Below the pieces are notes generated by a model. That model was not told the DNA's origin, did not search any database, and saw only the letters and a list, made by a program, of their open reading frames with translations. Made by a program: the position numbers and the translations under genes. Below are positions 1,591 to 30,221 of a DNA stretch of 64,000 bases, piece after piece (the stretch's first letter is position 1; the number at the start of each line of letters is the position of its first letter). The DNA comes from a virus. Location: IMG/VR virus record IMGVR_UViG_3300030333_008372, positions 1-64,000 of that record; one strand, given 5' to 3'.

Positions 1591-1935
1591 ATGTCTTATT
1601 ATAAATTTAATAATAACAAAAAACAAATAAAAAGTAAAGTAAAAGAATTAAAATCTGATAATAAAATAACAGATAAATTCTTAGATCAAATTAGTCTTCT
1701 TACTCTAGAAGATATTATCACTATAAAATTAGAATTATCTTTAAAAAATTCAGGAGGATTATTATATGGTCTTCCTATATGGAATAATTTAAGTGATATA
1801 ATCAGATATTCTTTACTTAAAAGTTCTTTATCTATGTGCAAGAATAAAACAGAGGCTGCTAACTTCTTAGGGATCACTTTAGGTCATTTATTAGAATTAA
1901 TTGAAAAATATAACTTGACAAAAACTGATGATTAA
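1591..1935 (+). CDS. Small protein with Fis-type helix-turn-helix
   Basis: The product is 114 residues. Its C-terminus (about residues 83-110: CKNKTEAANFLGITLGHLLE and then LIEKYNL) has the layout of the Fis/NtrC C-terminal helix-turn-helix, in which N-K-T-x-A-A-x-x-L-G-I is followed by a recognition helix and ends in KY-x-L. The N-terminal half is Lys/Asn-rich and helical. It has its own strong promoter (1530-1558) and no clear ribosome site before the ATG. Its 3' end contains the -35 box of the RNA promoter at 1915. A sequence-specific DNA-binding or nucleoid-like role is likely. Its target is unknown; the adjacent RNA locus is one candidate. Confidence 0.7.
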   Translation: MSYYKFNNNKKQIKSKVKELKSDNKITDKFLDQISLLTLEDIITIKLELSLKNSGGLLYGLPIWNNLSDIIRYSLLKSSLSMCKNKTEAANFLGITLGHLLELIEKYNLTKTDD

Positions 1936-1949: not shown

Positions 1950-2105
1950 AGTAGAATTGAGAGAGGCATTTTAAACACTAAGGAGACTAAAGCCTTCAGC
2001 ATCCTTCACGAAGGCTCTAAATATCAACGAAGGGTTAGTATGACGTTGGAGCTAGAAAGACGTCTCCTCTCAGTAATGCCCCCCATTAGGGGGGCTTAAA
2101 TTTTT
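1950..2105 (+). ncRNA. Structured free-standing RNA, family not recognised
   Basis: The locus has a consensus promoter, nested paired segments and a terminator, and no plausible reading frame. Pairings visible by eye: GGCATT (1965-1970) with AATGCC (2075-2080); AGGAGAC (1981-1987) with GTCTCCT (2062-2068); AGCCTTC (1991-1997) with GAAGGCT (2010-2016); CAACG (2025-2029) with CGTTG (2044-2048). In addition CCTTC (2003-2007), in the loop of the first inner hairpin, can pair with GAAGG (2029-2033) at the second, which would make a kissing or pseudoknot contact. The result is a junction with two inner arms closed by two stacked outer stems. The outermost stem shares GCC (2078-2080) with the terminator, so the two may compete. 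It is about 155 nt long. I cannot match it to a known class; it could also act as a leader for the lipoprotein genes downstream. Confidence 0.75.
2078..2105 (+). terminator. Rho-independent terminator of the RNA
   Basis: A 7-bp stem, GCCCCCC (2078-2084) with GGGGGGC (2089-2095), has a four-base loop and is followed by TTAAATTTTT. The T tract is interrupted by AAA, so termination may be incomplete and some transcription may reach the lipoprotein genes. Confidence 0.75.
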
Positions 2106-2130: not shown

Positions 2131-2448
2131 ATGAAAAATTTGATTATTGCATCGATGCTAGTTTTCAGCATTGTTGGATGTCATGAAGAAGAGGAAGCTG
2201 ACTGTGCAGAAGCAGTAGTTGCCGAGGAAGAAGCTGCTGAAGAAGAATCTGATGCAGAAGAAGAGGTTGACGCTGAAGAAGAGGAAGCTGCTGACGAGGA
2301 AGAGGAAGCAGAAGAGTCTGAAGAAGCAGAAGAGGAAGCCGATGAAGAAGAGGCTGACGAAGAAGAATCCGAAGAGTCCGAAGAATCTGACGAAGAAGCT
2401 GAAGAGCTAGACGAAGAAGAGGAAGAGGACGAAGAGGAAGAAGAGTAA
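2131..2448 (+). CDS. Glu-rich predicted lipoprotein
   Basis: The product is 105 residues with an AAGGAG ribosome site. The N-terminus is a short lipoprotein signal (MKNLIIASMLVFSIVGC) with a lipobox ending at Cys17, so after lipidation the mature protein would start at that Cys. Almost all of the rest is Glu, Asp, Ala and Ser, giving an extreme negative charge and probably no fold. The signal peptide resembles that of the next gene (MRSFIIATMLTFALVAC), so the two are probably a pair derived from a common leader. A phage lipoprotein would sit on the host envelope. Superinfection exclusion or envelope modification is possible but not shown. Confidence 0.8.
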   Translation: MKNLIIASMLVFSIVGCHEEEEADCAEAVVAEEEAAEEESDAEEEVDAEEEEAADEEEEAEESEEAEEEADEEEADEEESEESEESDEEAEELDEEEEEDEEEEE

Positions 2449-2471: not shown

Positions 2472-4181
2472 ATGAGAAGCTTTATTATTGCTACAATGTT
2501 AACATTTGCTTTGGTTGCTTGTGAGGATACGACCTCGACAACGACTGAGACAACTGAAGATAAAAAAGGAATAACGTTCATTGGTGCTGATGATAATAGT
2601 GGAACTACCACTACTACCACAACAACTACTACTGATGAAACGACAACAGCCCCAACTGAAACTGGAACTACAACCCCAACTGAAACTGGAACTACAAATC
2701 CAACAGAGGTTGAGGAAAACAATGAAACCAATACCACTCCAAAGGAAACTGAGGATAAGGTAGAGGAAAACATTGAGGAGACGACCCCTGAACAGGGGTC
2801 TGATCCTTCTGATCCTGTTGAAGAAGAAACAACGGAAGTTGATCCTGTTGAGGATGAAATTACTCTAGAAGATTTAACAGCAGAAGAATTTGCTGAGATT
2901 GAAATCTTGCGTGATAATATTTTTGGAGGGCTTAATGTCGGAAAAGAATTATATCTTGCTCAGGTCTCTTTAGCGCTGGAAGATCTAGGGGTTGATGGGG
3001 GTTATCAGATTTTAGACGATAGCCAAGATCTACCAGAAGTATCTGATTGTCCTTACGTTGAATTCTATAATAATCAAGCTGTAATGACTGGATATGCTTG
3101 TGAGTATCTTGTAGATAAGGCTCGCTCAGAAGCTTATTCAAAGCTTTACGGGACACTTGCTTCCGTAAGAGAAGCTTATAATCCAGATCTTAGTGAGCAA
3201 GACTTTTGGTTCGAACAGGGCGCAGTTAGCGGTCTTGAAGAAGCTCGTGTTATGGTTCGTGTTGATCTTAAAGCAAAACAGCTTTGTAATGTAAATCCCT
3301 CTCCTGTAAAAAGTTCCGGAGAAAAAGGATTAGTTGTAGGACGTCAGCATTTTATTAATTCTATGAATAATTGGCTTACTACTAACGGCTACTCAGCAGA
3401 TTATCCAATTATGTCTGATCCTATTGAAGTATGTCAGGCTAGTGAATCAATGCTTGATCCTGTTTTCAATGATGCCATGAACACTATTAGTCAGGCTATG
3501 GAACAAAATCCTCTTTGTGATGATTATGTCCCTACTGATAGTGATGACGAATTAATGTTTGCCCAAGCTCAGACTGATTATGCGAACGCTTTGAAAGAAG
3601 GGATTCAAGATGAGTTTGCACTTGCAGCAGTTAAGATTTTTAAAGTTGTTCCCTGTAATGTATCAGACCCAGTTGTTATTGATTTGAATAATAACGGTCG
3701 ATTTGATATTACCGCAGTTGAAAATGGAGTTAACTTTTCTATGTTTGGTCATCGCAAAGCTGCAACTGGCTGGCTAAATGGCGACGGATTCCTTTTCTTT
3801 GATCAAAACAATAATGGAGTTGCTGATAATGGAACTGAATTTTTTGGAACATCATCTGAATTTAAAAGTGGATTCTCACATATGAGAACAATGGATATTA
3901 ACGGCGACAATATCATTGATAAAAATGATGCAACCTACAAACGTCTTTTTGTGTGGTCGGATATCAATTTTGATGGTGTCTGTACAGAGGGTGAAGTAAC
4001 GCCTCTTAACAAGACACAGATTACTTCAATTCCTCTTCGAGCACTTGATTTTGAAAAGGTTGTAAATGGTAGTCGCATCAAAGGTGTTATGCGTGTCCCT
4101 GTTGGCAAAAATCAAGTTATTCTTTTTGGAGATGTAGATCTACGTTCTGGAATCTATCCAAAGATTCGAAAAACACAATAA
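2472..4181 (+). CDS. Large predicted lipoprotein with C-terminal calcium-binding domain
   Basis: The product is 569 residues. It has a signal peptide with lipobox (FALVAC, Cys17), then a Thr-rich low-complexity linker to about residue 135 with short TETGTT-type repeats, then a globular Cys-containing region. The C-terminus from about residue 395 has the arrangement of a domain seen at the ends of large bacterial exoproteins: DPVVIDLNNNGRFD, then GDGFLFFDQNNNGVADNG, ELFG-like TEFFG, and two EF-hand-like loops (DINGDNIIDKND; DINFDGVCTEGE). Calcium binding is therefore likely. It follows the Glu-rich lipoprotein by 23 bases and is closed by a terminator at 4214, making a two-gene unit. Such a protein is unusual in a phage; surface display on the infected cell is inference. 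Confidence 0.8.
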   Translation: MRSFIIATMLTFALVACEDTTSTTTETTEDKKGITFIGADDNSGTTTTTTTTTTDETTTAPTETGTTTPTETGTTNPTEVEENNETNTTPKETEDKVEENIEETTPEQGSDPSDPVEEETTEVDPVEDEITLEDLTAEEFAEIEILRDNIFGGLNVGKELYLAQVSLALEDLGVDGGYQILDDSQDLPEVSDCPYVEFYNNQAVMTGYACEYLVDKARSEAYSKLYGTLASVREAYNPDLSEQDFWFEQGAVSGLEEARVMVRVDLKAKQLCNVNPSPVKSSGEKGLVVGRQHFINSMNNWLTTNGYSADYPIMSDPIEVCQASESMLDPVFNDAMNTISQAMEQNPLCDDYVPTDSDDELMFAQAQTDYANALKEGIQDEFALAAVKIFKVVPCNVSDPVVIDLNNNGRFDITAVENGVNFSMFGHRKAATGWLNGDGFLFFDQNNNGVADNGTEFFGTSSEFKSGFSHMRTMDINGDNIIDKNDATYKRLFVWSDINFDGVCTEGEVTPLNKTQITSIPLRALDFEKVVNGSRIKGVMRVPVGKNQVILFGDVDLRSGIYPKIRKTQ

Positions 4182-4261: not shown

Positions 4262-5383
4262 ATGAGCAACACACACAAAAACTGGAAACAATTTATTATT
4301 AATGAAGCTGGCTTATCTAAGATTAGGCAAGATATGCTTGATTACGATACAGCCTTTATTACAGCATTTCGTGGCGATATAAACGACACATCAGTGTGCC
4401 TTTATATTCCTCTTACAAGCAAAGAAATAAAAGAAAGAACCCGCATAGGAAGAAAGGGCGTCTTCAATAGAAAAAATAATAAAGAACTTTCAGCTTATTT
4501 ACTTTCACAAGGATATGGGATTAAAAATGTTCAAGGTTCTTATATCGAGAATTTTGAAGACCCAGATAAAGTTCCGAGAGAAGTAAAAGAAAATAGTTTT
4601 TTCGTTACCAACCTTAAAGATGACCCTGAATTTTTTGAACAGATCATCAACCTTGGAAAGAGATACTGCCAAGACTCTGTTATTCTTATTCCAAAAGGCG
4701 AAGAAGCTTATATCTATGGAACAAACAATAGTCGATATCCCGGTTTAGATCAAAAAGAAACACTTGGTAAATTTATGGGTGGAGAAACCGGAGAGTTTAT
4801 GTCTCGTATTGGAAGCAGACCTTTTGTTATGCGAGAAGAAGAGGAGACTAAAACTTATGAAGGTCTATCCGGAAAGCAAAGACAAGCAGTAAAGCTTATG
4901 GCTAAAAGGATATCAGAACAAATCAGCGATATGCATATGTTATCAGAAGCTGACCTATCTTCATATGATAATGGAGGCATGCTTACACTTTACCACTATG
5001 CTCCTGTTGATGAGGATCAAATAGAAGTCGATCCAAACCAATTTGGTAAAAGAAGTTATTCTAGGAGAGAAAAACAAAGGTCTTCATATCCTAGATCTTT
5101 TTATTATGTCGATCTAAATCAAGCCGAAAATGAAGTTAAATCAGGAAAAAAACTTTTTTCTCTTCAATTTCCTGTTAATAAGTTGTATAATTTTAAAGAA
5201 GACCCGGATGGCTTAATTAAATCTATTAGACATCCAACGTATGGGTTTAGAGACGATATTGAATGGACTGAATTATTTTCTTCTATTCATGAAAAATATG
5301 ATGGTGCTTATTACTCAACACCAAGAATGGACGTAGTGGTTCTTTTTGAACCAGCCATTGCAGATAAAATGGAGAGAGAATGA
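4262..5383 (+). CDS. Probable capsid-packaged protein, DUF3293-like plus possible ADP-ribosyltransferase-like half
   Basis: The product is 373 residues. The N-terminus KNWKQFIINEAG resembles the T4 capsid-targeting leader of the internal proteins (MKTYQEFIAEA) and fits the prohead-protease cut I-x-E before A, here after Glu15. Residues ~25-155 (TAFRGDINDTSVCLYIPLT, an N-rich segment, a late YIYGTNN) loosely follow the DUF3293 layout. The C-terminal half starts LTLYHYAP and ends in DVVVLFEP, reminiscent of ADP-ribosyltransferase folds that begin with a Y-H motif; this part is weak. There is no ribosome site: the ATG follows AACTATTTAATATT directly after a terminator. It overlaps the next gene by ATGA. 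Cargo delivered with the genome is the favoured inference. Confidence 0.65.
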   Translation: MSNTHKNWKQFIINEAGLSKIRQDMLDYDTAFITAFRGDINDTSVCLYIPLTSKEIKERTRIGRKGVFNRKNNKELSAYLLSQGYGIKNVQGSYIENFEDPDKVPREVKENSFFVTNLKDDPEFFEQIINLGKRYCQDSVILIPKGEEAYIYGTNNSRYPGLDQKETLGKFMGGETGEFMSRIGSRPFVMREEEETKTYEGLSGKQRQAVKLMAKRISEQISDMHMLSEADLSSYDNGGMLTLYHYAPVDEDQIEVDPNQFGKRSYSRREKQRSSYPRSFYYVDLNQAENEVKSGKKLFSLQFPVNKLYNFKEDPDGLIKSIRHPTYGFRDDIEWTELFSSIHEKYDGAYYSTPRMDVVVLFEPAIADKMERE

Positions 5384-7572: not shown

Positions 7573-8724
7573 ATGGAAGATTTTGATATACCATCACTTG
7601 ATATTGAGGATTTAGACCTCGACGCCCTTGAAGGAGAAGACGCCCAAGGCGTTGAAGATGAAAGCGGAGGTGCTTTAACCTACGCAATCATTGGATCTGG
7701 TCAAGGTGGCGGTCGTATCGCAAAGGCATTTTACGATTTAGGTTATAAGAAGACTGTCGCTTTTAATACAGCAAAAGCAGATCTAACTCTTCTAGATCTT
7801 CCAGACGAACATAAATTTTATGTTGATCACTCTGGCGGTCAAGGAGCAGGTAAAGACCAAGAGAAAGGTCGTGCTGCCTATGAAAGCCGTGATCAAGAAA
7901 TCTTCAACAAAATGCGCCAGATCTTTGGTGAGAACATCGATAGAATTTTAGTTTGTGTCGGTGTTGCTGGTGGATCTGGTGGTGGCTCTGTCCATACATT
8001 GGTTAACATCGCAAAAAGATATTTTACATATGTAGGAAAAGAGAACGCAAATGAGCGTGTTGGTGTTGTAGCTTCCCTCCCCACAACTGGTGAGTCTGCT
8101 TCCCCAACTGTCGCAAAGAACGCATTCAATAGAATGACTGAACTTTGTGCTTCTGCTGAAAACGGTGAATTTGCCCCCCTTGTTATTATTGATAACGATA
8201 AAATTAAAAAGCTTTATCCCAAGCTGACCGTTAAACAGTTCTGGCCCACTCTAAACAAGACTGTGGCTGGGCTTTTCCACATTTTTAATGTTTTAGCAAC
8301 AAAGAACTCTGATTATACAACTTTTGATCCTGCTGATTATGATACGATCATGAAGACAAAAGGATGTATGATTTTGGGTGCGACAACAGTTAAAGATCCA
8401 GAGGACGAAACTTCTGTATCAAATGCACTTAAACAAAACTTGGAAAAAACACTTCTTGCCGGAGGGTTTGATTTAACAACAGCAGAAGGCGCAGCCAGTA
8501 TTGTTGTTGGTGGATCTGAGCTTTATGAAAATGTTGCTGGTCTTATGGATGCAATTGAATATGGTTTTGACACGCTAGCTGCCATTACAGGTGGGGCGGT
8601 TGTACATAGAGGCATTTATGAAGATCCTAAAAAACAAAAGCTTGTTGCTTATACAATGGTTGGTGGATTAAATGCACCACAAAAAAGATTAGACGATCTT
8701 AAAAAATTTCTAAATGTAAAATAA
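7573..8724 (+). CDS. FtsZ/tubulin-like GTPase
   Basis: The product is 383 residues. After an acidic N-terminal tail (~1-33) the FtsZ/tubulin motifs appear in order: YAIIGSGQGGGRIAKAF (T1 loop, ~37-53); VAFNTAKADL (~62-71, FtsZ NTDAQ region); GGQGAGKDQEKGRAAYES (~88-105, FtsZ G-L-G-A-G loop); VGVAGGSGGGS (~129-139, the tubulin signature GG-T/S-G-x-G); VVASLPTTGE (~165-174); VIIDNDKIKKLYP (~204-216, FtsZ IPND). In the expected place for the catalytic T7 loop is GGFDLTTAEGA, with acidic residues but not the standard NxDxxD. The protein is complete and should bind GTP and polymerise. Known phage tubulins (PhuZ) centre DNA or the phage nucleus; whether this one does is unknown. SD: AAGGAG. Confidence 0.88.
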   Translation: MEDFDIPSLDIEDLDLDALEGEDAQGVEDESGGALTYAIIGSGQGGGRIAKAFYDLGYKKTVAFNTAKADLTLLDLPDEHKFYVDHSGGQGAGKDQEKGRAAYESRDQEIFNKMRQIFGENIDRILVCVGVAGGSGGGSVHTLVNIAKRYFTYVGKENANERVGVVASLPTTGESASPTVAKNAFNRMTELCASAENGEFAPLVIIDNDKIKKLYPKLTVKQFWPTLNKTVAGLFHIFNVLATKNSDYTTFDPADYDTIMKTKGCMILGATTVKDPEDETSVSNALKQNLEKTLLAGGFDLTTAEGAASIVVGGSELYENVAGLMDAIEYGFDTLAAITGGAVVHRGIYEDPKKQKLVAYTMVGGLNAPQKRLDDLKKFLNVK

Positions 8725-15296: not shown

Positions 15297-16066
15297 TGCT
15301 TAAGCCACATATTTCTTTTTCAGAGCTTAAAGACTGGAACTTCTGCCCTTACTACCATAACCAAGTCCATTTTCAGAAAGTAAAAGGTTTCCGTGGTAAT
15401 GTATTTACTGCTTTTGGAAATGCTATTCACGATACCTGTGAGAAAACACTCACAGAAGATCTTAAAGATCCTTATGGGTTTTTTGCTGATCGATTTGTGA
15501 ATGTTCTTAATGAGCTTAAAGCAGATGGTATTGAGATAGACGAAAGTCTTGTAGAGAAAATGGAAACACAAGCAGTGCCCCTAATTGAAAATGTTTTACC
15601 AGCACTTAAACATTATTTTGGTAAATATGAGGTACACGCCGCTGAAGAAGCTCTTTACGAAGATATTGAAGATGCCCCACAAAAATACAAAGGATATATC
15701 GATCTTGTATTAAAGACACCAGATGGTAAATATCATATTATAGATTGGAAGACTTGTTCTTGGGGTTGGGATATGCGTCGTAGAAGTGATCCAATGACGA
15801 CTTACCAACTTACTTTTTATAAACATTTCTGGGCTAAAAAGCACGGTGTGGATATTGATAAGATTGAAACACATTTTGCTCTTATGAAAAGAACTGCAAA
15901 GAAAAATCACATCGAAATATTTCGTGTCACAAGTGGAAATAAAAAAATGTCTAATGCTCTTAACTTTATGAATAAGGCTCTATATAATATCAATCGTGGT
16001 ATGAAAATTAAGAATCGTTTATCTTGTAAGAGATGCGATCTATACAAAACGGAACACTGTAAATGA
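15296..16066 (+). CDS. PD-(D/E)XK nuclease, Cas4/RecB-like, with Cys cluster
   Basis: The product is 256 residues. Nuclease core: His45 (GNAIHDTCE), GYIDLV (Asp136), HIIDWKT (Asp150, Lys152) and TYQLTFYKHF. Cys17 (NFCPYY) plus three C-terminal cysteines (CKRCDLYKTEHC: 244, 247, 255) match the four-Cys iron-sulphur arrangement of Cas4, AddB and related exonucleases. It looks complete and active. In phages such enzymes serve recombination, packaging or host-DNA breakdown. The start overlaps the metalloprotease stop (TAATG) and the end overlaps the first glycosyltransferase (ATGA), so it is expressed with the glycan operon although functionally different. Confidence 0.85.
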   Translation: MLKPHISFSELKDWNFCPYYHNQVHFQKVKGFRGNVFTAFGNAIHDTCEKTLTEDLKDPYGFFADRFVNVLNELKADGIEIDESLVEKMETQAVPLIENVLPALKHYFGKYEVHAAEEALYEDIEDAPQKYKGYIDLVLKTPDGKYHIIDWKTCSWGWDMRRRSDPMTTYQLTFYKHFWAKKHGVDIDKIETHFALMKRTAKKNHIEIFRVTSGNKKMSNALNFMNKALYNINRGMKIKNRLSCKRCDLYKTEHCK

Positions 16067-17319
16067 AAAAAAAGATCTTAACCTTATCTGACCACCCACT
16101 AAGCCCCTCTGGAGTCGGTCTTCAATCAAAAATATTTTGTGAATCACTTTTAAAAACTGGAAGATATCAAATTATATCTCTTGGTGGCGCAATGAAACAT
16201 TCAAATTATTCTGCAAAAAAAGTGGAACCATATGGTGATGACTGGGTAGTGCATCCAGTCGATGGGTATGGTAGTAAAGATTTGATACGTTCGATAATTA
16301 GAACTGAAAGACCTGATGTCCTATGGTTTATGACTGATCCAAGATTTTGGGGCTGGCTGTGGCAAATGGAAAACGAGATAAGACCTCACATGCCAATGAT
16401 CTACTATCATGTTTGGGATAATTACCCTTATCCAGTCTATAATAAAAAGTTTTATGATTCGAATGACATGATTGTTTCAATATCTAAAGTTACACATGAT
16501 ATTGTTCAAACGGTAAGCCCAAACACGGATGCACATTATTTACCGCATTCCGTTGAATCAGACATTTTTATTCCATTCGAGCAGAGCGAAATAGAAAAAT
16601 TTAAAAAAGAGCATTTTCCAAATGACTCTGATGATAGGACGATTTTTTTATGGAACAATAGGAATGCTAGGAGAAAACAAAGTGGCTCTTTATTATATTG
16701 GTTTAAAGAATTTTTGGATGAAGTTGGTCATGATAAGGCTAAGTTAATAATGCATACCGACCCAAGAGATCCATATGGTCAAGATCTAGTTTCTATGTTG
16801 CGTGATTTAGAAGTTAGCCCGGACAGTATTGCCATTTCTACACAGAAGGTTGATAAGCCAACACTAGCAATGATGTATAACATAGCTGATTGTGTGGTAA
16901 ATATATCAGATGCAGAAGGCTTTGGTCTTTCTACCTTTGAATCTTTATCTTGTGGGACCCCGATTATCGTTAACATGACAGGGGGTCTTCAGGAACAGGT
17001 AACTGATGGAGAAAATTGGTTTGGCATTGGCATTGAACCTTGCTCTAAAGCTGTTATTGGATCGCAAGACGTGCCATATATTTATGAAGATCGCATCAGT
17101 AAAGAGGATTTTATTGCTGCGCTCCGTAAGATACATAATATGAGCAAAGAGGAGAGAGTTGCTCTCGGACATGCTGGAAGAAATCATGTTTTAAAAAATT
17201 ATAACTACGATGAATATTGTAGCAAGTGGGTCGACCTAATCGATGGTGCTTGTGAAAAATATGGATCTTGGGAAAATAGAAAGAATTATCAACCTTGGAG
17301 TTTTAGTAAAGTATCATGA
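16063..17319 (+). CDS. GT4-type glycosyltransferase 1
   Basis: The product is 418 residues with a GT-B fold. The N-terminal acceptor half starts KILTLSDHPLSPSGVGLQSK (the Gly loop of GT4 enzymes). The C-terminal donor half has FLWNNRNARRKQ, then the GT4 signature SDAEGFGLSTFESLSCGTPI (E-x-F-G-x-x-x-x-E, about residues 284-303). It should transfer a sugar from a nucleotide donor with retention of configuration. First of three coupled glycosyltransferases (16063, 17316, 18578), each joined by ATGA overlap. No membrane segment; cytoplasmic. Sugar unknown. Confidence 0.88.
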   Translation: MKKKILTLSDHPLSPSGVGLQSKIFCESLLKTGRYQIISLGGAMKHSNYSAKKVEPYGDDWVVHPVDGYGSKDLIRSIIRTERPDVLWFMTDPRFWGWLWQMENEIRPHMPMIYYHVWDNYPYPVYNKKFYDSNDMIVSISKVTHDIVQTVSPNTDAHYLPHSVESDIFIPFEQSEIEKFKKEHFPNDSDDRTIFLWNNRNARRKQSGSLLYWFKEFLDEVGHDKAKLIMHTDPRDPYGQDLVSMLRDLEVSPDSIAISTQKVDKPTLAMMYNIADCVVNISDAEGFGLSTFESLSCGTPIIVNMTGGLQEQVTDGENWFGIGIEPCSKAVIGSQDVPYIYEDRISKEDFIAALRKIHNMSKEERVALGHAGRNHVLKNYNYDEYCSKWVDLIDGACEKYGSWENRKNYQPWSFSKVS

Positions 17320-18581
17320 AAAAAATTATTGTAAGAGGACCAGCACTAAGCAGAAGCGGCTATGGAGAACAAACAAGATTTGCATTACGTTGTCTCCGGG
17401 CTTCTAAAGATTATGATATTCATATCATAAATACAGACTGGGGCAAAACCAGTTATATCTCATGTGATGATGAGGAGTTTCGCTGGATTGAACACAAAAT
17501 GTTGACCACAAAAAAGATTTTAGATCTGGCAAAGCAGACAAAAACGCCACCTAAATTTGACGTTTCTCTTCAGGTTACCATACCAAATGAGTGGCAACAG
17601 TTAGCTGAAATTAATATTGGCTACACCGCTGGTATTGAGTCTGATAGAGTAGCTGCTGTTTGGATAGAGCAGGCAAGAAAAATGGATAAAATTATTGTAA
17701 CATCCAATCACGCTAAACATGGTTTTATTAACACTTCTTATGAAGGTAGGCATGAACACACTGGAGAGATTGCAGAACTAAAATTAGACCCCACTAAGCA
17801 TCCTGTTAAGGTTGTAAACTATGCAGTTCGTGAAGTTGAAAAAGTAAACTTGGATTTGCAATTTGAAACTAAAACAAATTTTTTATGTGTTGCACAATGG
17901 GGTCCAAGGAAGAATGTTGAAAATACAGTAAAATGGTTCGTAGAAAATTTTAAAGATAATGAACAAGTTGGTTTAGTTTTAAAGCTAAATTGTATTGATA
18001 GTTCTGTAATTGATAGATTTGAAACAGAAAAAAGAATTAAGAATTTTTTAGAAGAAATTAATGAGGATATTAAATGCAAAGTTTATTTAATTCACGGTGA
18101 TATGTCAGAGCAAGAATTACACTCTCTTTATGTTCACCCTAAAATTTCTGCTATGATATCCCTTACGCATGGCGAAGGATATGGGTTGCCATTATTTGAA
18201 GCAGCTTACAATGAATTGCCAATTATCGCACCAGATTGGTCTGGACATATGGATTTTCTTGTTGGAACGACTTCAAAAAACAGAAGAAGATCTTTATTTT
18301 TAAATGTTGATTTTACTTTGGCAAATGTTCAAAAACAGGCGGTTTGGAAAGGGGTTGTGGAGGAGGATTCCAAATGGTGTTACCCACAGGAATATTCTTT
18401 CAAGAAAAGACTTAATGATTTTATCAACAATGAAGGCGCACATAAAAAAAGAGCTAAATCTTTGGCATCCCAGATTAAAGAAAATTTTTCTGAGGAAAAG
18501 ATTTTTAAAGAATTTGTCGATGCCTTAAATGTAAAATCTATCGAGCATGAAGGACCAGCGGAGGAAGTTTTTGTTGTATGA
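17316..18581 (+). CDS. GT4-type glycosyltransferase 2
   Basis: The product is 421 residues. It starts KKIIVRGPALSRSGYGEQTR, with the same S-G-Y-G loop as the third enzyme. The donor half has FLCVAQWGPRKNVENTVKWF and the signature THGEGYGLPLFEAAYNELPI. The presence of Y-G instead of F-G is a normal family variant. It overlaps its neighbours by ATGA on both sides, so the three transferases are probably made in fixed ratio and extend one glycan in sequence. Sugar specificity cannot be read. Confidence 0.88.
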   Translation: MKKIIVRGPALSRSGYGEQTRFALRCLRASKDYDIHIINTDWGKTSYISCDDEEFRWIEHKMLTTKKILDLAKQTKTPPKFDVSLQVTIPNEWQQLAEINIGYTAGIESDRVAAVWIEQARKMDKIIVTSNHAKHGFINTSYEGRHEHTGEIAELKLDPTKHPVKVVNYAVREVEKVNLDLQFETKTNFLCVAQWGPRKNVENTVKWFVENFKDNEQVGLVLKLNCIDSSVIDRFETEKRIKNFLEEINEDIKCKVYLIHGDMSEQELHSLYVHPKISAMISLTHGEGYGLPLFEAAYNELPIIAPDWSGHMDFLVGTTSKNRRRSLFLNVDFTLANVQKQAVWKGVVEEDSKWCYPQEYSFKKRLNDFINNEGAHKKRAKSLASQIKENFSEEKIFKEFVDALNVKSIEHEGPAEEVFVV

Positions 18582-20611
18582 CTTTGAAGGTAATTTACTG
18601 TGCTCAATTTACCGATTCTAGCGGATATGGTTCCGCAGCTAGAGGATATTTATCTGCTCTAGATACACACGCAATCGACTTTGATTTAAAAGTTCATAAT
18701 GTTGCTTTTGAGGGATCTTCAAAAATATCTGATCAAAATAGGCAGCTAATTGAAAAATACTCATTCAAAGATGTTGAAGAAGTTAGGCAGCTTTTAAATA
18801 GCCGTGATTATATATTAATATGGCACCTCCCTGCCCCTTCATTTTTTGTACACTTACAGAGACACAAAGAAATTGCACACACCACCAATATGTTAGTTAG
18901 GGGTGCAAAAAGAGTTATCAATCTTGCTGCTTGGGAATATGATAAGATACCCCTAGAGTGGAAAAAGACTTGGAGAGATCTTTGTTTTGACGCTACAATC
19001 AGTCCTAGTAGGTGGAACCAAGAAATATTTAGTCAGTCTTTACCAGAAAAAAATCATTATCTCATACCCCACGTAATCAAGGAATATAATACAGAACCAG
19101 TCAAGCCAAAAGCAATAAGTGAAGATATGGTAAAAGATAAATTTGTTATTTTTACTATGTCTCAATGGGGATATCGAAAGGGCTTTGACCTCTTGATAAA
19201 GGCTTACTCTGCTGAATTTAAAAACCAACAAGATGTTGCTCTTGTTATGAAAACCTATGGGCACTATGTTGGCAATGTATATCCTCTAGAGGAAAAGGCT
19301 CAAAACGAATCGATTATAAAAGAGATAGGCAGTTTCAAAAATTCTGTTATTTTAGAGGGCTATAAAAATCCTACTGCTCCAATCTATTTTATACCTAGTG
19401 TTTTACCATTTGAAAATATTTCTTGGTTACATGATAAATCTTCCGTGTTTGCTTTGTCAACTAGGGGTGAGGGTTTCGGTCTTACAATCGCAGAAGCCTT
19501 AATGCACGAAAGACCAGTTATTGTTCCTGATCAAGGTGGTCACATTGATTACATAAATCCAGAAGCAGCATTCTTTGTCGATGGACACTGGACTCCATCT
19601 TTTGGGGACATTATGCATACTTGTGATACAAGCTGGTATGAGCCAAATATAAAAAGCATACGAGAACAACTCCGGAAAGCGTATGATATGTGGAAAGAAA
19701 ACCCACAATCACTTAAAGATATGGGTAAAAAAGGCAAAGATTATATACTTTCTAATCAATACTCGTATGAAGATATCGGTCGTCGCCTTAATAACGTTTT
19801 AAATAATGAAAATAATTATGAAGTTTTAGATAAGCTTAACGATGTTAGAAAAAAAACTATTGATACCAAATATGCTCTGTCTAAAGAAAAAGATTTATCA
19901 AAAAAAATAGAAGTTCTTAAAGATAGATTTAAAGGCAAAGAGTGTGTTATATTAACTTGTGGTCCATCTTTAAAAGATTTTAATAAAGAAAAATTAAAAG
20001 AATATTGTAAAGATAAAGTTGTTTTAGCAGTCAAACAAGCCTATGATTACGTCCCCGAGATTGTTGATATTCATTTGTGGAATTGCTCCAATCTACCAGC
20101 CCCTGCTGCAAACGGAGCTTATTATCCCTATTGGGAAAAGGAGCCTATTGTAATTTGCAGCAGTAATTATGACTTGGGTATGAGGTGGGATGCTACAAAA
20201 CAAAAGCATGACTTATTTTTTAAGATACCAATCAGAACTGAGATCAATAATGAGTTTGTAACAAAAACTAAAAGATTTGAAGATTATTTGCTTGATAAAC
20301 AATTAACAAGACCTTGTGGTCCGGGTATAATGTTGGAGACTGTGATTTACACCGCTGTTCATTTAGGGGTAAATAAAATTACAGCTATCGGTTGGGATAT
20401 TAATAATGCCCAAACAGAAGATGAGCATAAGCACTTCTTTGGAGACACAGGTAAACTTTTTAACAGAGGCGATGTGTTGGATTGGGAAATTGAAGCTAAT
20501 CAAAAAGCTTCAAGAGATTTATATAATTGGCTAAAAGAAAAAGATATTGAATTAGTTCTTGCCTCTGATAAAAGTTCATTATATAATGGAATTCCAAGAG
20601 TAACTTTATAA
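18578..20611 (+). CDS. GT4 glycosyltransferase fused to a DUF115/Maf-like domain
   Basis: The product is 677 residues, two enzymes in one chain. Residues ~1-430: a GT4 enzyme with FTDSSGYGSAARGYL, FTMSQWGYRKGFDLLIKAY and STRGEGFGLTIAEALMHERP. After a charged linker (~430-445), residues ~446-677 form a DUF115 (MptE/Maf) domain: ECVILTCGPSLKDFN (GPSL loop), VLAVKQAY, GPGIMLETVIYTAVHLGVNK and ITAIGWDINN, then an EHKHFFGD segment. Bacterial Maf proteins with this domain attach nonulosonic acids to flagellin; the pterin kinase MptE shares the fold. The fusion ties a sugar transferase to the Maf-like step. It precedes neuB by 12 bases. Confidence 0.85.
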   Translation: MTLKVIYCAQFTDSSGYGSAARGYLSALDTHAIDFDLKVHNVAFEGSSKISDQNRQLIEKYSFKDVEEVRQLLNSRDYILIWHLPAPSFFVHLQRHKEIAHTTNMLVRGAKRVINLAAWEYDKIPLEWKKTWRDLCFDATISPSRWNQEIFSQSLPEKNHYLIPHVIKEYNTEPVKPKAISEDMVKDKFVIFTMSQWGYRKGFDLLIKAYSAEFKNQQDVALVMKTYGHYVGNVYPLEEKAQNESIIKEIGSFKNSVILEGYKNPTAPIYFIPSVLPFENISWLHDKSSVFALSTRGEGFGLTIAEALMHERPVIVPDQGGHIDYINPEAAFFVDGHWTPSFGDIMHTCDTSWYEPNIKSIREQLRKAYDMWKENPQSLKDMGKKGKDYILSNQYSYEDIGRRLNNVLNNENNYEVLDKLNDVRKKTIDTKYALSKEKDLSKKIEVLKDRFKGKECVILTCGPSLKDFNKEKLKEYCKDKVVLAVKQAYDYVPEIVDIHLWNCSNLPAPAANGAYYPYWEKEPIVICSSNYDLGMRWDATKQKHDLFFKIPIRTEINNEFVTKTKRFEDYLLDKQLTRPCGPGIMLETVIYTAVHLGVNKITAIGWDINNAQTEDEHKHFFGDTGKLFNRGDVLDWEIEANQKASRDLYNWLKEKDIELVLASDKSSLYNGIPRVTL

Positions 20612-20623
20612 AGGAAATAAAAA

Positions 20624-21457
20624 ATGTCAGTACATATTATCGCAGAAATTGGTATCAACCATAATGGTGATTTGGAGATAGCAAAAAAACTTATTCAAAT
20701 TGCAGCCGCAGCAGGATGTGATTCTGTGAAGTTCCAAAAACGAAACCCGGACGTTTGTGTCCCAGAGCACCAAAAGAGTGTTATGAGAGATACACCTTGG
20801 GGTAAAATGACTTATTTGGATTATAAGTATAAGGTTGAGTTTGGTAAAGAAGAATATGATGAAATTGATCGATATTGCAAAGAGAACAATATTGCTTGGT
20901 CTGCTTCGCCTTGGGATTTAGATAGTCTTGAATTTCTTGATCAATATGATCTTCCATATATTAAGATGCCATCTGCACACTTGACTAACGATGAGCTTTT
21001 AGCTGCTTGTCGTGATACTGGAAAAAAAGTAATTCTTTCCACTGGCATGAGCACTGTTGAAGAAATTGAACACGCAGTTAATGTCTTGAGATCAAATGGT
21101 GGATGTGATTTTGCCCTTTTACATTGTAATTCAACATATCCTGCGCCGATTGAAGAATTAAATCTTAATTGTATTAATACATTACGTGATAAATTCCAAT
21201 GCGAAGTGGGCTATAGTGGTCATGAGTTTAGACTTGGAACTTCTGTTGCTACTGTATTGATGGGAGCTACAATAGTTGAGCGACATATTACTTTGGACAG
21301 GACTATGTGGGGATCTGATCACATGGCTTCTGTTGAACCACAAGGTCTTATTAAATTAGTTCGAGGAGTTCGTGAACTTGAGGCTGCTTTGGGCGATGGA
21401 AATATCGGTGTTACTGAAGGCGAAAAGCCTGTGCGTAAAAAATTAAGAGGAGTATAA
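20624..21457 (+). CDS. neuB: NeuB-like nonulosonic acid synthase, no SAF domain
   Basis: The product is 277 residues. The TIM-barrel of the NeuB/SpsE family is complete: IIAEIGINHNGDLEIAKKLI, DSVKFQK, SASPWDLDSLEFL, YIKMPSAHLTN, VILSTGMST, ALLHCNSTYPAP, EVGYSGHE and IVERHITLDRTMWGSDH. It condenses phosphoenolpyruvate with an N-acyl-hexosamine such as ManNAc to give sialic, legionaminic or pseudaminic acid. Usual NeuB is about 340-350 residues with a C-terminal antifreeze-like SAF domain; here the chain ends at EGEKPVRKKLRGV, so SAF is missing. SD AAAGGA. No NeuC-type epimerase lies in the window, so the hexosamine must come from the host or elsewhere. Confidence 0.9.
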   Translation: MSVHIIAEIGINHNGDLEIAKKLIQIAAAAGCDSVKFQKRNPDVCVPEHQKSVMRDTPWGKMTYLDYKYKVEFGKEEYDEIDRYCKENNIAWSASPWDLDSLEFLDQYDLPYIKMPSAHLTNDELLAACRDTGKKVILSTGMSTVEEIEHAVNVLRSNGGCDFALLHCNSTYPAPIEELNLNCINTLRDKFQCEVGYSGHEFRLGTSVATVLMGATIVERHITLDRTMWGSDHMASVEPQGLIKLVRGVRELEAALGDGNIGVTEGEKPVRKKLRGV

Positions 21458-22404
21458 TGAAAAGCTGGAATAATTGTCAAAAAATATCTGAAACATCCGA
21501 AGTCCCCACGGATGTGGATGGCAAAATATGGGGCGCTTATATGAGATATTTAGGAGGGTTAAACTCGGTAAATGTTAGGGGCCCAATCTGGTATGACAAA
21601 GAAACATCAGTTTGTTTTGGTCCTGATCAGGATTTTTTCTCAAACAGACAAGAATTTTCTTTTTATCATCAAGAAGAAAATTTTCTACAATTTGAGCCAT
21701 GGGGTAAATATCATTTACAAAACGTTTTAGGTCAACATATTGGCGTAGAGTGTAATATGGATACTGAAATTATATATCATAATCATCCTGAATTTCAAAA
21801 ATATAAAGATTCTACAATTCTTATCGTTGGCGCTGGTCCTTCTGCTATTGACGTTAATTGGGAAGATGAAGAGAGAGATTTTGTTTGGTCTTGCACTAAG
21901 TTTTATTTAAATGAAAAGCTTCAAGATTGTGGTGTTGACCTTGCATCGGTTGGCGGCAATGTTTCTTTAGGAGACCCACAGTTTCAATCTTTTATTACAA
22001 GACACAACACTCTTTGTGTATTTGAGGGTGGTGTTAGTCCATTTAAAACAGGAGAAGAACTACAGGCTTTTAATAGACTTTTTCCAAACCAGTCATCATA
22101 TTTTCATACGAGATATTTTTCTAAATTAGGTTCAGCAGCAAGATTAATTTTATTGGCTGGTTTTCTTGGAGCAAAAGAAATTAAATTTGTTGGGTTTGAC
22201 GGAAACCCAGTTAATCAAAAACATGCTTTTGAAGGAGAACAAAAGGTTCACGATGAGGTTTGGAGAAATAGTAGCGCTTTAAATCTTTATCGTAGACAGT
22301 TTGTTATTTTTTGGGATTATGTTCTTTCCATGGATAATGGCGTTTTATACACTAATCTTGGTAAAGGTCACCCAAATAATCTTACCACAGATATTTTGGA
22401 GTAA
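21457..22404 (+). CDS. DUF115/Maf-like protein, block 1
   Basis: The product is 315 residues. After an N-terminal ~115-residue region (tryptophan- and tyrosine-rich, SVCFGPDQDFF) the domain core TILIVGAGPSAIDVNW (~121-136) gives the G-x-G-P-S loop, followed by KFYLNEKL, ARLILLAGFLGAKEIKFVGFDG and KHAFEG. These match the gene at 25494 segment for segment, so the two are paralogues, and they resemble the C-terminal half of the 677-residue protein. The assignment to the DUF115/Maf fold rests on this loop and the G-F-D-G strand, not on a search. Starts by TAATG overlap with neuB, suggesting linked function. Confidence 0.72.
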   Translation: MKSWNNCQKISETSEVPTDVDGKIWGAYMRYLGGLNSVNVRGPIWYDKETSVCFGPDQDFFSNRQEFSFYHQEENFLQFEPWGKYHLQNVLGQHIGVECNMDTEIIYHNHPEFQKYKDSTILIVGAGPSAIDVNWEDEERDFVWSCTKFYLNEKLQDCGVDLASVGGNVSLGDPQFQSFITRHNTLCVFEGGVSPFKTGEELQAFNRLFPNQSSYFHTRYFSKLGSAARLILLAGFLGAKEIKFVGFDGNPVNQKHAFEGEQKVHDEVWRNSSALNLYRRQFVIFWDYVLSMDNGVLYTNLGKGHPNNLTTDILE

Positions 22405-22405
22405 A

Positions 22406-23089
22406 ATGAAGGATATTAATAATATCGCCGTTGTGATTCAGGCAAGACTTGGATCTCAACGTGTTCCTCAAAAAATGATCAAGCCTTTCGCTGGCACTAC
22501 TCTAACTGATATAGCGATAAAAAAGATAAAGAAATCAAACGTTATACAAAATTCACAATTTTACATGTCTGTTTATGAATCTGAATTATTAGATATATCA
22601 GCAAAGCATGACGTAAACGTTTATCTTCGTAGTGAAGCTTCTGCCAATTCTGAGGGAACACCTATGACCGAAATGTATGAATGGTGGAATAAATTACCTC
22701 ATGAATACTGCGTTCTAATTAATCCTTGTGTTCCATTTCTTGAAACAGAAACAATTGATAATTTTGTACAAGCATATGCCAATTCAAGTTCTGATGGCAT
22801 GTTTGGGGTTATGAAGAAAAAGAATTATTTTTGGAGACAAGACGGCTCTATTATCACGCCCTTGACAGAAGATGTGATGAATACTAAAACTGTTCCTTTT
22901 ACCTACGAGGCGGCGCATTGCTTATATGCAGGTCGTATGGACAAAATTAATGAAGGAATATGGATGGGAGATTTCAACAAGCCCGGAGATATTGAACTTT
23001 TTCCTATGAAAGAAGAGGAGTGTTTAGATATAGACTATTTATGGCAGTTTGAAATGTGTGAAAAACTTTATGAGGCAAAACATGAATAA
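22406..23089 (+). CDS. NeuA-like CMP-sugar (cytidylyltransferase) synthetase
   Basis: The product is 227 residues from ATG 22406, one base after the preceding stop; the longer frame from 22301 lies inside that gene. The N-terminus AVVIQARLGSQRVPQKMIKPFAG is the nucleotide-binding loop of the CMP-sialic/CMP-KDO synthetase family (A-R-x-G-S-x-R-x-P-x-K). Later CVLINPCVPFLETETID fits the D/N-P-x-x-P region, and the C-terminal ECLDIDYLWQFEMCE fits the acidic metal-binding end (DIDxxxD). It should activate the NeuB product as a CMP-sugar. No lyase domain is attached. It lies two genes downstream of neuB in one coupled operon. Confidence 0.82.
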   Translation: MKDINNIAVVIQARLGSQRVPQKMIKPFAGTTLTDIAIKKIKKSNVIQNSQFYMSVYESELLDISAKHDVNVYLRSEASANSEGTPMTEMYEWWNKLPHEYCVLINPCVPFLETETIDNFVQAYANSSSDGMFGVMKKKNYFWRQDGSIITPLTEDVMNTKTVPFTYEAAHCLYAGRMDKINEGIWMGDFNKPGDIELFPMKEEECLDIDYLWQFEMCEKLYEAKHE

Positions 23090-23900
23090 TAAAATGAAAA
23101 GCGTATTAGAACACGTTGAAAAGCAAATTAATGCAGCAACCGTCTCAGAAGAGATTGATGGCTACCCTTATATCCAGATATTGGACTTCTTTCCGCAAGA
23201 TTATTATGAAGAATTGGTTGAGGTTTTTAAGGGCATGGATAATAAGAATTTTAATCCTTTGTCTAATAATTATCAAAATAGGTATGTATACCAGATTAGT
23301 AGAGGAGAAAATGTCCATGATCCAATCCCAACTTTTAATGACTTGTCAGAAAAAGAAAGAAACTTTTGGAAAGACTTTCAAGATACTTTTTACACCAATG
23401 GTTTTCTCAAGACAGTTTTTTTAGAAAAATATGATGATTATATTGATTTTCCGAGAGAATATTATGGTCACATGATGGATCAATGCCGCCTTCAACGAGA
23501 TTATAAGGGATATTCTATTGGCGCTCACAGGGATAAATTAGATAAAATATTGAGTGTAATGATTTACACTCCGACAACAGATGACCCAAAAATTTTAGAA
23601 GATCATGGCACCGCCCTTTTAACACCTAAATTTGATGACCCTGAAAAAGTTCCACAACATCCAGATCACGTTGGTCAAGGTAAAGATCGGCATTTTAGAT
23701 TTGAGGAAATGAACCTTGTTAAAACAGCCCCTAGTATTCCAAATAGTATCTATAGTTGGGCAGTAGCTGAAAAATCCTATCACGGGGTTACGCCTTTACA
23801 GTCTGACCACACTAGACACACAATGGCTTTCTTTGTTAAGATACCGAAAAAATTAACACAATTTCACAAATTATACGGAGCTTCAGATTTTAAATGCTAA
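23082..23900 (+). CDS. 2OG-Fe(II) oxygenase (prolyl-hydroxylase-like)
   Basis: The product is 272 residues from ATG 23082, with GAGG shortly upstream; ATG 23094 is an alternative. The iron site is GAHRDKLDKILSVMIYTP (His149 and Asp151 of HxD) with the distal His in KSYHGVTPL and the 2-oxoglutarate-binding Arg in HTRHTMAFF. All iron ligands are present. The dioxygenase could hydroxylate a sugar, a lipid or a protein side chain. It overlaps NeuA-like by eight bases and the next gene by seven. No substrate can be stated. Confidence 0.8.
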   Translation: MNNKMKSVLEHVEKQINAATVSEEIDGYPYIQILDFFPQDYYEELVEVFKGMDNKNFNPLSNNYQNRYVYQISRGENVHDPIPTFNDLSEKERNFWKDFQDTFYTNGFLKTVFLEKYDDYIDFPREYYGHMMDQCRLQRDYKGYSIGAHRDKLDKILSVMIYTPTTDDPKILEDHGTALLTPKFDDPEKVPQHPDHVGQGKDRHFRFEEMNLVKTAPSIPNSIYSWAVAEKSYHGVTPLQSDHTRHTMAFFVKIPKKLTQFHKLYGASDFKC

Positions 23901-24742
23901 CATATAAAGAGCACTATGAGCTATCTGTAAAAAATTATGGTTTACAAAACGTAAATTTGCAAGATTTATATGATTTTACTGTTTTAGAGGTAAAAGCTAA
24001 AGAACAAAATGACTTCATTATTTTTAATGATCAATATTTTAAGTGTATAAAAAAATTGTCAAACTTATCTAATTTGACTTTTTCAAACCCAGATCAAAAT
24101 TGTTGGTTCCCTCCTGACGTCGATAGAAAAAAAGATAAGATTTTGAGATCAAAAAATGTATGGCTCCCAGAAGTCAACGAACTGGCTTCGCTTATTGTCC
24201 CCCAAATTGAAAAAAAATTATTTAAATCATTTTCTATTGTTGATGGAATATATTGGTATCGAACGTTTTATAAAAACACAAAGGATCAAAACTCTTTTAT
24301 ATGGCACTATGATAACCATTGTTTAGAGCGTATAAAGGTAATGTTTTATCTTAATGATGTTGATAAAAATTCTGGTCCTTTTACATATATGTGGAGCGAA
24401 AAAGAAAAAAAAGGTCTGCCTTGTCCAACATCAAGAATAGACTATAAGAAATGGGTTAAAAAAGAATCTAGATACTCTGACGAATTTATTGAAAAACATA
24501 AGCCTGATGGGTATGAGGCAAAACAATTTTTAGGAAATGCTGGTAGTTTTGTAATATTTGATAATAATATTATGCACAGAGCCACAAATACAAAGCCTAA
24601 TTACCATAGAGACGCAATTGTTTTTATGATGAGACCATATCATAAAAAAATGCCCCATTTTATTGGAAAAAATTGGACCGGATCGAATATGCACATCGAC
24701 AATAATAAAAATCCAGAATTTTACGGAGCTATCAAAAAATGA
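23894..24742 (+). CDS. PhyH-family 2OG-Fe(II) oxygenase, block 1
   Basis: The product is 282 residues. FIWHYDNHCLERIKVMFYLND has the HxD pair (His138, Asp140), and FDNNIMHRATN the distal His228, with Arg in YHRDAIVF. This is the phytanoyl-CoA dioxygenase layout, in which relatives hydroxylate small molecules and sugars. Length is normal. It starts within the last seven bases of the previous gene and overlaps the methyltransferase by ATGA. Paralogue at 27639 is distant in sequence but of the same family. Confidence 0.82.
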   Translation: MLTYKEHYELSVKNYGLQNVNLQDLYDFTVLEVKAKEQNDFIIFNDQYFKCIKKLSNLSNLTFSNPDQNCWFPPDVDRKKDKILRSKNVWLPEVNELASLIVPQIEKKLFKSFSIVDGIYWYRTFYKNTKDQNSFIWHYDNHCLERIKVMFYLNDVDKNSGPFTYMWSEKEKKGLPCPTSRIDYKKWVKKESRYSDEFIEKHKPDGYEAKQFLGNAGSFVIFDNNIMHRATNTKPNYHRDAIVFMMRPYHKKMPHFIGKNWTGSNMHIDNNKNPEFYGAIKK

Positions 24743-25497
24743 AATGCCATTGTTGTAGTTTAGAATACAAAAGATTATCAGAAACTTCATGGCAAGGTAT
24801 CAAATACATTTTGAAAAATGTATATCAGTGCAGTTCTTGCTCCCATATACACAGGGTTTATGATGGCGATAGTATAGAATATCATCAAAATATTTATAGA
24901 AATATTGAGAGAAGAGATAAGTCTGAAATCAATGAAGACGGTGAAGTGCAAAGTCTTTTTCATGAAAAAAGAAAAGATATGTGCGAAAAAAGAATGTCTT
25001 TTGTGCAATGTTATCTAGAGGAAAGCGATACTTGTTTAGATATTGGAGCCGGTGCGGGAACATATGCAAACCTTTTAAGACAGGAAGTTGGTGATGTAGA
25101 ATGCACCGAACTCGCTCCTGCTTTGATTAACGAACTTAAAAGATTAAATTTTAAGGTATATGAGGACGATTTTTTATCTATTAAGTTTGATAAAAAATAT
25201 GATGTTGTTTCTGCTTGGCATGTCTTAGAGCACGTTGAAGATATTAAATCTTTCATGAAAAAAACTTATCAACTTTCAAATCGTTATGTTATAATTGAAG
25301 TTCCTTTGCTTAAAGCTTTGAATAATAAAGGCAAGGTAAGAAAACTAACTGATCCTAAAGATGAGGAATATGATGGACATACTCACTATTTTACAGAACA
25401 ATCTTTTAGAGAATTAATCAAAGATTATTTTAATATAGTGATCCTGAAGGAAGGAGTTCAGTCTCCCTCTTTGTTTTCGGTATTGGAGAAGAAATGA
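24739..25497 (+). CDS. Zinc-ribbon class I methyltransferase, block 1
   Basis: The product is 252 residues. The N-terminus has a CxCC pair and CSSC about 25 residues later, a likely zinc knuckle, as in sugar C-methyltransferases of the Methyltransf_13/23 type. SAM motif I is CLDIGAGAGTYANLL, followed by ECTELAPAL, YDVVSAWHVLEHVEDIKSF (motif with H-V-L-E-H-V) and HTHYFTEQSF. The gene at 29366 has the same order, including Cys pairs, HVLEHVED and the HYF motif, so the two are paralogues. It likely methylates a glycan or its precursor. Confidence 0.82.
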   Translation: MKCHCCSLEYKRLSETSWQGIKYILKNVYQCSSCSHIHRVYDGDSIEYHQNIYRNIERRDKSEINEDGEVQSLFHEKRKDMCEKRMSFVQCYLEESDTCLDIGAGAGTYANLLRQEVGDVECTELAPALINELKRLNFKVYEDDFLSIKFDKKYDVVSAWHVLEHVEDIKSFMKKTYQLSNRYVIIEVPLLKALNNKGKVRKLTDPKDEEYDGHTHYFTEQSFRELIKDYFNIVILKEGVQSPSLFSVLEKK

Positions 25498-26558
25498 AAT
25501 ATATACCTATAGGCACAGAATTTCTCGGGTTTACGAAATGTTATTGCTCCCATGAAGATACATATCTAAACATATCAGATGAATTTGTTAAAAAAATATC
25601 TGAAAAAGCAATTTCTGAAAATCAATTCGATAGACAAGACATTTGGCTTATTAATGCAGGTTTAGGAAAAACCGAAACCTTCCCAGAAAAATCTTTTCGT
25701 CGTGTAAAAAATAAAATAAATGGTGAAATTTTTAATCATTCTCCGCATTCTTTTTCTACACCTCCTGATCAATTTCTTAATAGTATGTATGGGCTTCCAT
25801 ATCTTGAAAGAACTAGAGAAAAGGTAGAATACCTAAAAAATACTCCTTTTGGTGCAAATGGAGAATTTATTATTCAAAACTATCATGAGGAAAAGAAAAA
25901 ATATGAGGGCAAATCACTTCTTATTTTAGGTGGTGGTCCTTCTACAATAGATGTTGATTTTTCAAATTTGTCGACTGATTATATTTGGGCAAGTAATAAT
26001 TTTTTTCTAAACGAAAAGTTTTCCAATATTAAATTAGATGGGCTAGCAGTCACGCCTTATATGGACCTGTTGCTCAATAAAAAGTTAATTAATTTTTTAG
26101 ATAAAAACCCAGAAACTAGAATATTTTTTGAAACAGAGAGAGGAGATCATAATAAAGATTGGGATAGTATGCATGAATTCATGATTAAATATCCTGAAAA
26201 ATCTTTTCTTTATGGAACCAGATATAGGTCTAAAATTGGCATCACTCCAAGACAAATTTGTCTTGCAATCTTTTTGGGTTTTAAAGAAATTTATTTTCTT
26301 GGATTTGATGGTGTACGTAGAGCGAATGAAAGGCATGCATTTGAGGGTAAAAAAGAGTTACCACAATGGCTTAAAAAATTCGATAGGTATGGTGGACTCT
26401 ACACAGAAGGTATGCAGTTTATTCAATATTGGAATTACATCCTTCAATTAAGAAATGGAGAAAAAAGCCAATACGATTTTAATTTATATAATTTGGCAGA
26501 AGGCTTGGATTACAACGTTTCATCGGAGATTACTCAATGTTTAAAATTGCACAGTTAG
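25494..26558 (+). CDS. DUF115/Maf-like protein, block 2
   Basis: The product is 354 residues. The core SLLILGGGPSTIDVDF (~141-156), then NNFFLNEKF, ICLAIFLGFKEIYFLGFDG and RHAFEG is collinear with the protein at 21457 (VGAGPSAIDVNW, KFYLNEKL, KFVGFDG, KHAFEG). The N-terminal ~130 residues differ. As there, the DUF115/Maf fold is inferred from the G-G-G-P-S loop. Overlaps the methyltransferase by ATGA and the next gene by 22 bases. It may transfer an activated nonulosonic acid or a derivative; untested. Confidence 0.7.
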   Translation: MKYIPIGTEFLGFTKCYCSHEDTYLNISDEFVKKISEKAISENQFDRQDIWLINAGLGKTETFPEKSFRRVKNKINGEIFNHSPHSFSTPPDQFLNSMYGLPYLERTREKVEYLKNTPFGANGEFIIQNYHEEKKKYEGKSLLILGGGPSTIDVDFSNLSTDYIWASNNFFLNEKFSNIKLDGLAVTPYMDLLLNKKLINFLDKNPETRIFFETERGDHNKDWDSMHEFMIKYPEKSFLYGTRYRSKIGITPRQICLAIFLGFKEIYFLGFDGVRRANERHAFEGKKELPQWLKKFDRYGGLYTEGMQFIQYWNYILQLRNGEKSQYDFNLYNLAEGLDYNVSSEITQCLKLHS

Positions 26559-27637: not shown

Positions 27638-27638
27638 A

Positions 27639-28496: not shown

Positions 28497-28497
28497 A

Positions 28498-29331: not shown

Positions 29332-29365
29332 TGATTAAAGTTTTTAATAAAGGAGTAGTAATTTT

Positions 29366-30220: not shown

Positions 30221-30221
30221 T

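Follow-up and report, generated by a model that had tools for sequence, protein, structure and literature searches.

Bacteriophage T4 encodes two small stable RNAs, rnaC and rnaD (species 1 and 2 RNA), which are 139 and 119 nt long respectively. We know of no settled function for either of them. The packaging RNA of phage phi29 is similar in length to the RNA described here; it folds into several helices and has loop-loop pairing. Pistol and other small self-cleaving ribozymes are compact RNAs in which a hairpin loop pairs with a downstream strand. The GOLLD and ROOL RNAs have been reported to form RNA-only homo-oligomers (PMC12286853).

The RNA described here was found in a T4-type tailed phage, as judged by its baseplate protein. 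The window, by which we mean the whole 64,000-nt stretch that was analysed, is part of a 71.8-kb virus record. The reading that we favour, with a probability of roughly 0.6, is that this is a stand-alone, trans-acting structured RNA of a new conserved phage family, allied to the translation module.

The RNA gene in the window

The gene is about 150 nt long, non-coding, and bracketed by a near-perfect promoter and an intrinsic terminator. The promoter, TTGACA-17-TATATT at 1915-1943, comprises a -35 element at 1915-1920 and, after a 17-nt spacer, a -10 element at 1938-1943. The original prediction called it perfect; it is present as described but matches the consensus at 11/12 positions. A promoter with at least 10/12 matches lies upstream of the RNA in 80% of 41 members of the family, against 10% of control stretches. 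Transcription is expected to start at about 1950, and from the promoter and terminator the transcript is predicted to cover 1950-2098 on the plus strand. The terminator had been recognised correctly, it is read as the hairpin GCCCCCC-ATTA-GGGGGGC at 2078-2095 (plus strand) followed by TTAAATTTTT.

The statement that this transcript holds no gene is borne out by the relatives. An ATG frame of 19 codons at 2040-2099 in the window RNA is not conserved across the family. No conserved reading frame was found in the 41 members, the candidate frames ending after three codons in 15/41 and varying in length and start codon in the rest. A leader peptide or small protein gene was rejected since no frame is kept across the 41 members.

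The folding energy of the window RNA has a z score of -2.8 with the terminator and -1.2 without it. Folding energy by itself is weak evidence for this RNA and it is covariation in relatives that counts; as the value was merely modestly unusual, relatives were examined. The inner helices proposed by minimum-energy folding were misleading and were set aside.

The conserved upstream neighbour (1591-1935, plus strand) encodes a small, all-helical protein of 114 aa with a C-terminal HTH. The original prediction named it Fis-like, and the HTH is indeed weakly so. Matches to NtrC/Fis HTH domains have E=0.016/0.064, and HTH_8 matches the copy in locus L004 with E=0.0014, under the curated cut-off. The AF2 model of the protein is all-helical with a mean pLDDT of 74.5, and the top Foldseek matches are mostly Fis, none of them significant. 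A match of the Fis-like profile to PDB 8vd6 was discarded as a sum of weak repeat matches.

Two lipoprotein-like genes are found downstream, at 2131-2448 and 2472-4181. One is almost all acidic (E/D/A), and the other has a Thr-rich stretch and DxNxNG-type motifs. The acidic gene (2131-2448, plus strand) takes the place usually held by a tmRNA or tRNA in relatives. Elsewhere in the window, 4262-5383 encodes a Pfam S-adenosylmethionine lyase domain (30.7 bits against a curated cut-off of 28), and 7573-8724 a TubZ/FtsZ-like protein that matches Pfam Tubulin above the cut-off and is kept in relatives. A run of glycosyltransferase-, methyltransferase- and oxygenase-like genes at 16063-30593, assigned from translations only, is probably concerned with surface or glycan modification.

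Relatives of the RNA

Relatives of the lipoprotein neighbour led to L004, in which the corresponding position, with the Fis-like gene on one side and a lipoprotein gene on the other, holds a diverged RNA. Relatives of the TubZ-like protein led to L017 and L043, where the RNA is flanked by the Fis-like gene and a tmRNA gene, and to L031, in which a truncated copy is present at the end of the record. A covariance model (R1) was built from four members. This model found three new copies with E-values of 1e-11 to 1e-10 (56.5, 54.2 and 52.3 bits) in records picked by another gene, and all three are 3' of a Fis-like gene and 5' of a tmRNA. As these copies were absent from model building, they provide the strongest single test of the family.

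Scanning with the alignment of Fis-like sequences turned up 339 relatives, and we kept the best 80. The RNA was detected by R1 and a larger model, R2, in 41 of 79 kept loci (L004's contig left out) at E<=0.011, always on the sense strand and downstream of the Fis-like gene. Adding the window, L004 and L051-L053 brings the number of Fis-linked loci to 46, which include some near-duplicates.

Two unlinked copies have no Fis-like gene, tmRNA or tRNA nearby. They lie at 2174-2247 of the L152 record (E=1.4e-6) and on the minus strand at 2306-2382 of L153 (E=4.5e-5), and their flanking genes are unrelated. By direct reading L152 has a TTGACA-17-TATTAT promoter; no obvious promoter was seen in L153. 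Both copies sit among small MK(V/I)GDLV-type genes.

Blastn of the RNA sequence against named phages gave chance matches only, and tblastn of the Fis-like and TubZ-like proteins against named phages found none. Two DNA patterns searched in viral contigs recovered known copies only, and one of them fitted just L043-like copies. Two strict patterns, which divergent copies could escape, gave no real copy in 84,980 bacterial and archaeal species genomes. The lone match in this genome collection, inside a glycosyltransferase gene, was rejected by a further model, R3.

Fold and covariation

The fold predicted for the family consists of a closing stem (P1), a hairpin (P3), an H-type pseudoknot (pk) and a second hairpin (P5) beside P1. 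The loop of P3 pairs with the strand immediately 5' of a conserved UAGY, and P5 is stacked on P1 with a gap of 0-2 nt. In the window, on the plus strand, the P1 5' strand at 1956-1966 is AUUGAGAG, a bulged A1964 and then GG; 1956-1963 plus 1965-1966 pair with 2065-2074, which follows P5 immediately. P3 is formed by AGCCUUC (1991-1997) and GAAGGCU (2010-2016). The first pk strand, AUCCUUC (2001-2007), is in the P3 loop and pairs with GAAGGGU (2029-2035). This second strand is followed by the joining sequence UAGUAUG (2036-2042), whose final G2042 is the start of P5. The P5 hairpin (2042-2064) has the strands GACGU and ACGUC (2042-2046/2060-2064) and the loop UGGAGCUAGAAAG.

In an alignment of the four seed sequences made with MAFFT, 98.4% of the P3, pk and P5 positions form standard pairs and double changes are seen in 10/16 pairs, which was matched by none of 500 shuffles. 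Among 31 members, compensatory change is found in all six pk pairs and all five P5 pairs. In 41 aligned members (40 distinct) it extends to 15/16 pairs, made up of 4/5 counted pairs in P3, 6/6 in pk and 5/5 in P5, and 95.3% of cells are paired. Again 0/500 shuffles match, and controls in which the structure is slid along the alignment fall to 35-53%. Alignments made with a covariance model lean to the model's own structure; the MAFFT-made seed already covaried. The original prediction had proposed compensatory changes in relatives as its check, and these are present at every size of alignment.

P1 was assessed by direct reading and by joining the upstream half of one member to the downstream half of another. 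A P1 stem that scores 8 or more and begins 0-2 nt beyond P5 is present in 81% of members against 9% of these mismatched partners, and 34 different P1 strands occur among the members. P1 is also present, as judged by eye, in both unlinked copies.

Several unpaired or loop bases are conserved, namely UG.C where the pk loop begins, an A-rich strand 5' of pk, UAGY and the P5 loop. The UAGY bases are conserved in 40/41 (U), 35/41 (A), 35/41 (G) and 40/41 (Y) members, and the P5 loop follows a motif of approximately GYGARRA.

The original prediction included a CCTTC/GAAGG kissing pair. This complementarity is real and covaries in relatives, but its second partner is outside any conserved hairpin loop and it is therefore an H-type pseudoknot rather than a contact between kissing hairpins. 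The other proposed helices fared less well. GGCATT/AATGCC (1965-1970/2075-2080) and CAACG/CGTTG are not helices of the family, the second hairpin is not conserved, and GGAGAC/GTCTCC competes with the conserved P5. As GGCATT/AATGCC is not a family helix, the GCC that it shares with the terminator is not part of a conserved switch. The broader proposal, a structured RNA gene that stands alone with a promoter of its own, loop-strand pairing and a terminator, holds.

In a subgroup of loci (L101, L087, L104, L107, L121, L065 and L097) the P1 5' strand lies within the loop of another short stem upstream of the core, examples of which are UUCUAG/CUAGAA, CCCACG/CGUGGG and AAGCUUAU/AUAAGCUU. Read by eye, this stem would make a second, outer pseudoknot.

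Genomic setting, function and known RNAs

The next RNA gene downstream is a tmRNA in 26/41 members and tRNA-Gly in 8/41, and the median distance from the end of the core to the start of the tmRNA or tRNA is 33 nt. The frequency of tmRNA neighbours is a biased estimate because loci were chosen via the Fis-like gene, which is itself beside tmRNA. A lipoprotein gene follows the RNA in the window and L004 only, and a terminator is present there too.

We favour a trans-acting gene product over a leader because the fold is constant, the neighbours vary, the RNA has its own promoter, and terminators are found where there is no tmRNA. Transcription would start from a sigma-70-type promoter of the RNA's own, located where the Fis-like gene ends, and the RNA would adopt a compact core, in which P1 closes the structure, the P3 loop pairs downstream as pk and P5 abuts P1. 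In most relatives the transcript seems to begin with the RNA and run on into tmRNA or tRNA-Gly, whose 5' processing would set the upstream part free; we infer both co-transcription and this mode of release from the short spacing. In the window and L004 the RNA is followed by a terminator instead. The RNA may then act in trans as a stable RNA, probably with a protein partner such as the phage Fis-like protein, a host RNA-binding protein or a ribosome component. Its most likely function would be as a protein-bound RNA in the phage translation and ribosome-rescue module.

Some of the tmRNA-linked loci carry further sequences in this interval. A boxA-like sequence (TTCTTT, 1-2 nt, AA) is found within 45 nt upstream of the tmRNA in 13/46 loci (L051, L052, L066, L068, L076, L080, L088, L097, L104, L105, L107, L121 and L131), the background in the same loci being 0.0095 per 45 nt. 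This sequence could draw host Nus factors. In L051-L053 a strong GCCCCC...GGGGGC hairpin, which has no T tract, lies between the RNA and the tmRNA and is a possible processing site.

The RNA is absent from some phages that have the Fis-like gene and tmRNA. No full copy was detected in 38/80 kept Fis-like loci, one of which ends at the contig end. In three records (G010, G011 and G012; loci L012-L014) about 16 nt separate the end of the Fis-like match from the tmRNA, leaving no room for the RNA, so here the two genes are linked without it. The copy-less loci and these three records indicate that the RNA is dispensable in some phages. Such patchy presence between related phages, together with a position in the tmRNA/tRNA island, would suit a counter-defence decoy, a stable RNA that ties up a nuclease, toxin or RNA-guided defence protein of the host and shares its island with the tRNAs and tmRNA that compensate for damage to host tRNA. 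Phage RNA decoys do exist in general. However, no specific target is indicated and the core is conserved rather than changing at an arms-race pace, and we consider a decoy unlikely, if the least so of the alternatives.

Less likely again is a cis-acting leader, either a riboswitch or an attenuator, controlling the downstream gene. The compact pseudoknotted fold, the conserved unpaired bases, the location upstream of other genes and, in the window, a terminator immediately 3' of the RNA are features that such a leader could have. A leader would be expected to keep its regulated gene, but here the downstream gene may be tmRNA, tRNA-Gly, a lipoprotein or, in the unlinked copies, something unrelated. 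This disfavours the original suggestion of an attenuator for the lipoprotein genes. In L004 the P1 3' strand runs straight into a T tract, so the conserved fold itself would terminate transcription, and neither the shared-GCC switch nor any other antiterminator is seen to be conserved.

The closeness of the RNA to the 5' side of tmRNA or tRNA, and a pseudoknot and small conserved core that resemble small ribozymes in general form, raise the prospect that it trims the tmRNA/tRNA precursor, as a processing element or as a self-cleaving ribozyme. We give this little weight, as no Rfam ribozyme family matches, the RNA is kept with a terminator and no tmRNA in the window and L004 as well as in the unlinked copies, and it is missing from many relatives that do have the Fis-like gene and tmRNA.

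The RNA family also resembles the last pseudoknot of tmRNA (RF00023), its genomic neighbour. In both, an H-type pseudoknot leads into UAR and then a closing helix, and a loop UGNC pairs with GNC. This short motif resemblance is a lead; descent from tmRNA, or mimicry of it by P3/pk and UAGY, is improbable because R3 run with filters off gave no sense-strand match in the tmRNAs of 14 loci, because the bases after UAR pair in helix 2 of tmRNA whereas P5 intervenes in the RNA family, and because the shared bases are few and were spotted after the fact. The family has neither a tRNA-like domain nor a tag frame, and in relatives the tmRNA is a separate downstream gene. ARAGORN found no tRNA or tmRNA overlapping the RNA region and no tmRNA in the window.

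The original prediction assigned the RNA to no known class, and a search of Rfam 15 (4227 families) agrees. Neither the window copy (whole window at the gathering score, 1850-2140 at E<=10) nor eight further members (L004, L017 and L043 at E<=10, five more loci at E<=1) gave a match. Below threshold, tmRNA_permuted matches reach into the RNA as extensions from the neighbouring tmRNA. No published description of the family was found in the literature searched, in which subscription papers and preprints are thinly covered.

We tentatively put at somewhat below even odds the wider proposal, that this is a new class of trans-acting pseudoknotted phage RNA which works with the tmRNA/tRNA island, is common in uncultured phages and has no place among the described RNA families. 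It could act, for example, on ribosomes or SmpB, or oppose host tRNA-targeting defence. The family adds an RNA with strong covariation in phages that have no close named relative in the phage collection searched. It also points to a recurring island of a Fis-like gene, a structured RNA and then a tmRNA or tRNA, which suggests that phages with ribosome rescue also have an unrecognised RNA. The consensus and coordinates open its expression, partners and function to direct testing.

Among the RNAs described at the outset, the packaging RNA of phi29 differs in that the pairing geometry of the present family fits an intramolecular pseudoknot, and no Rfam model of that RNA or of Pistol and other ribozymes matches it. 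GOLLD and ROOL are, like this family, structured bacterial or phage-associated RNAs with no assigned function, but they are far larger than its ~150 nt. The closest parallel in setting is with rnaC and rnaD, which are also small and lie by the tRNA cluster of a T4-type phage. Their sequence differs, rnaC reads as tRNA-like, and homology was not detected, the family model with filters off giving no match at 1409-1672 of L143, the T4 rnaC/rnaD region. What is new here is the class of RNA; small phage RNAs next to tRNAs, as a broad kind, have been known since T4.
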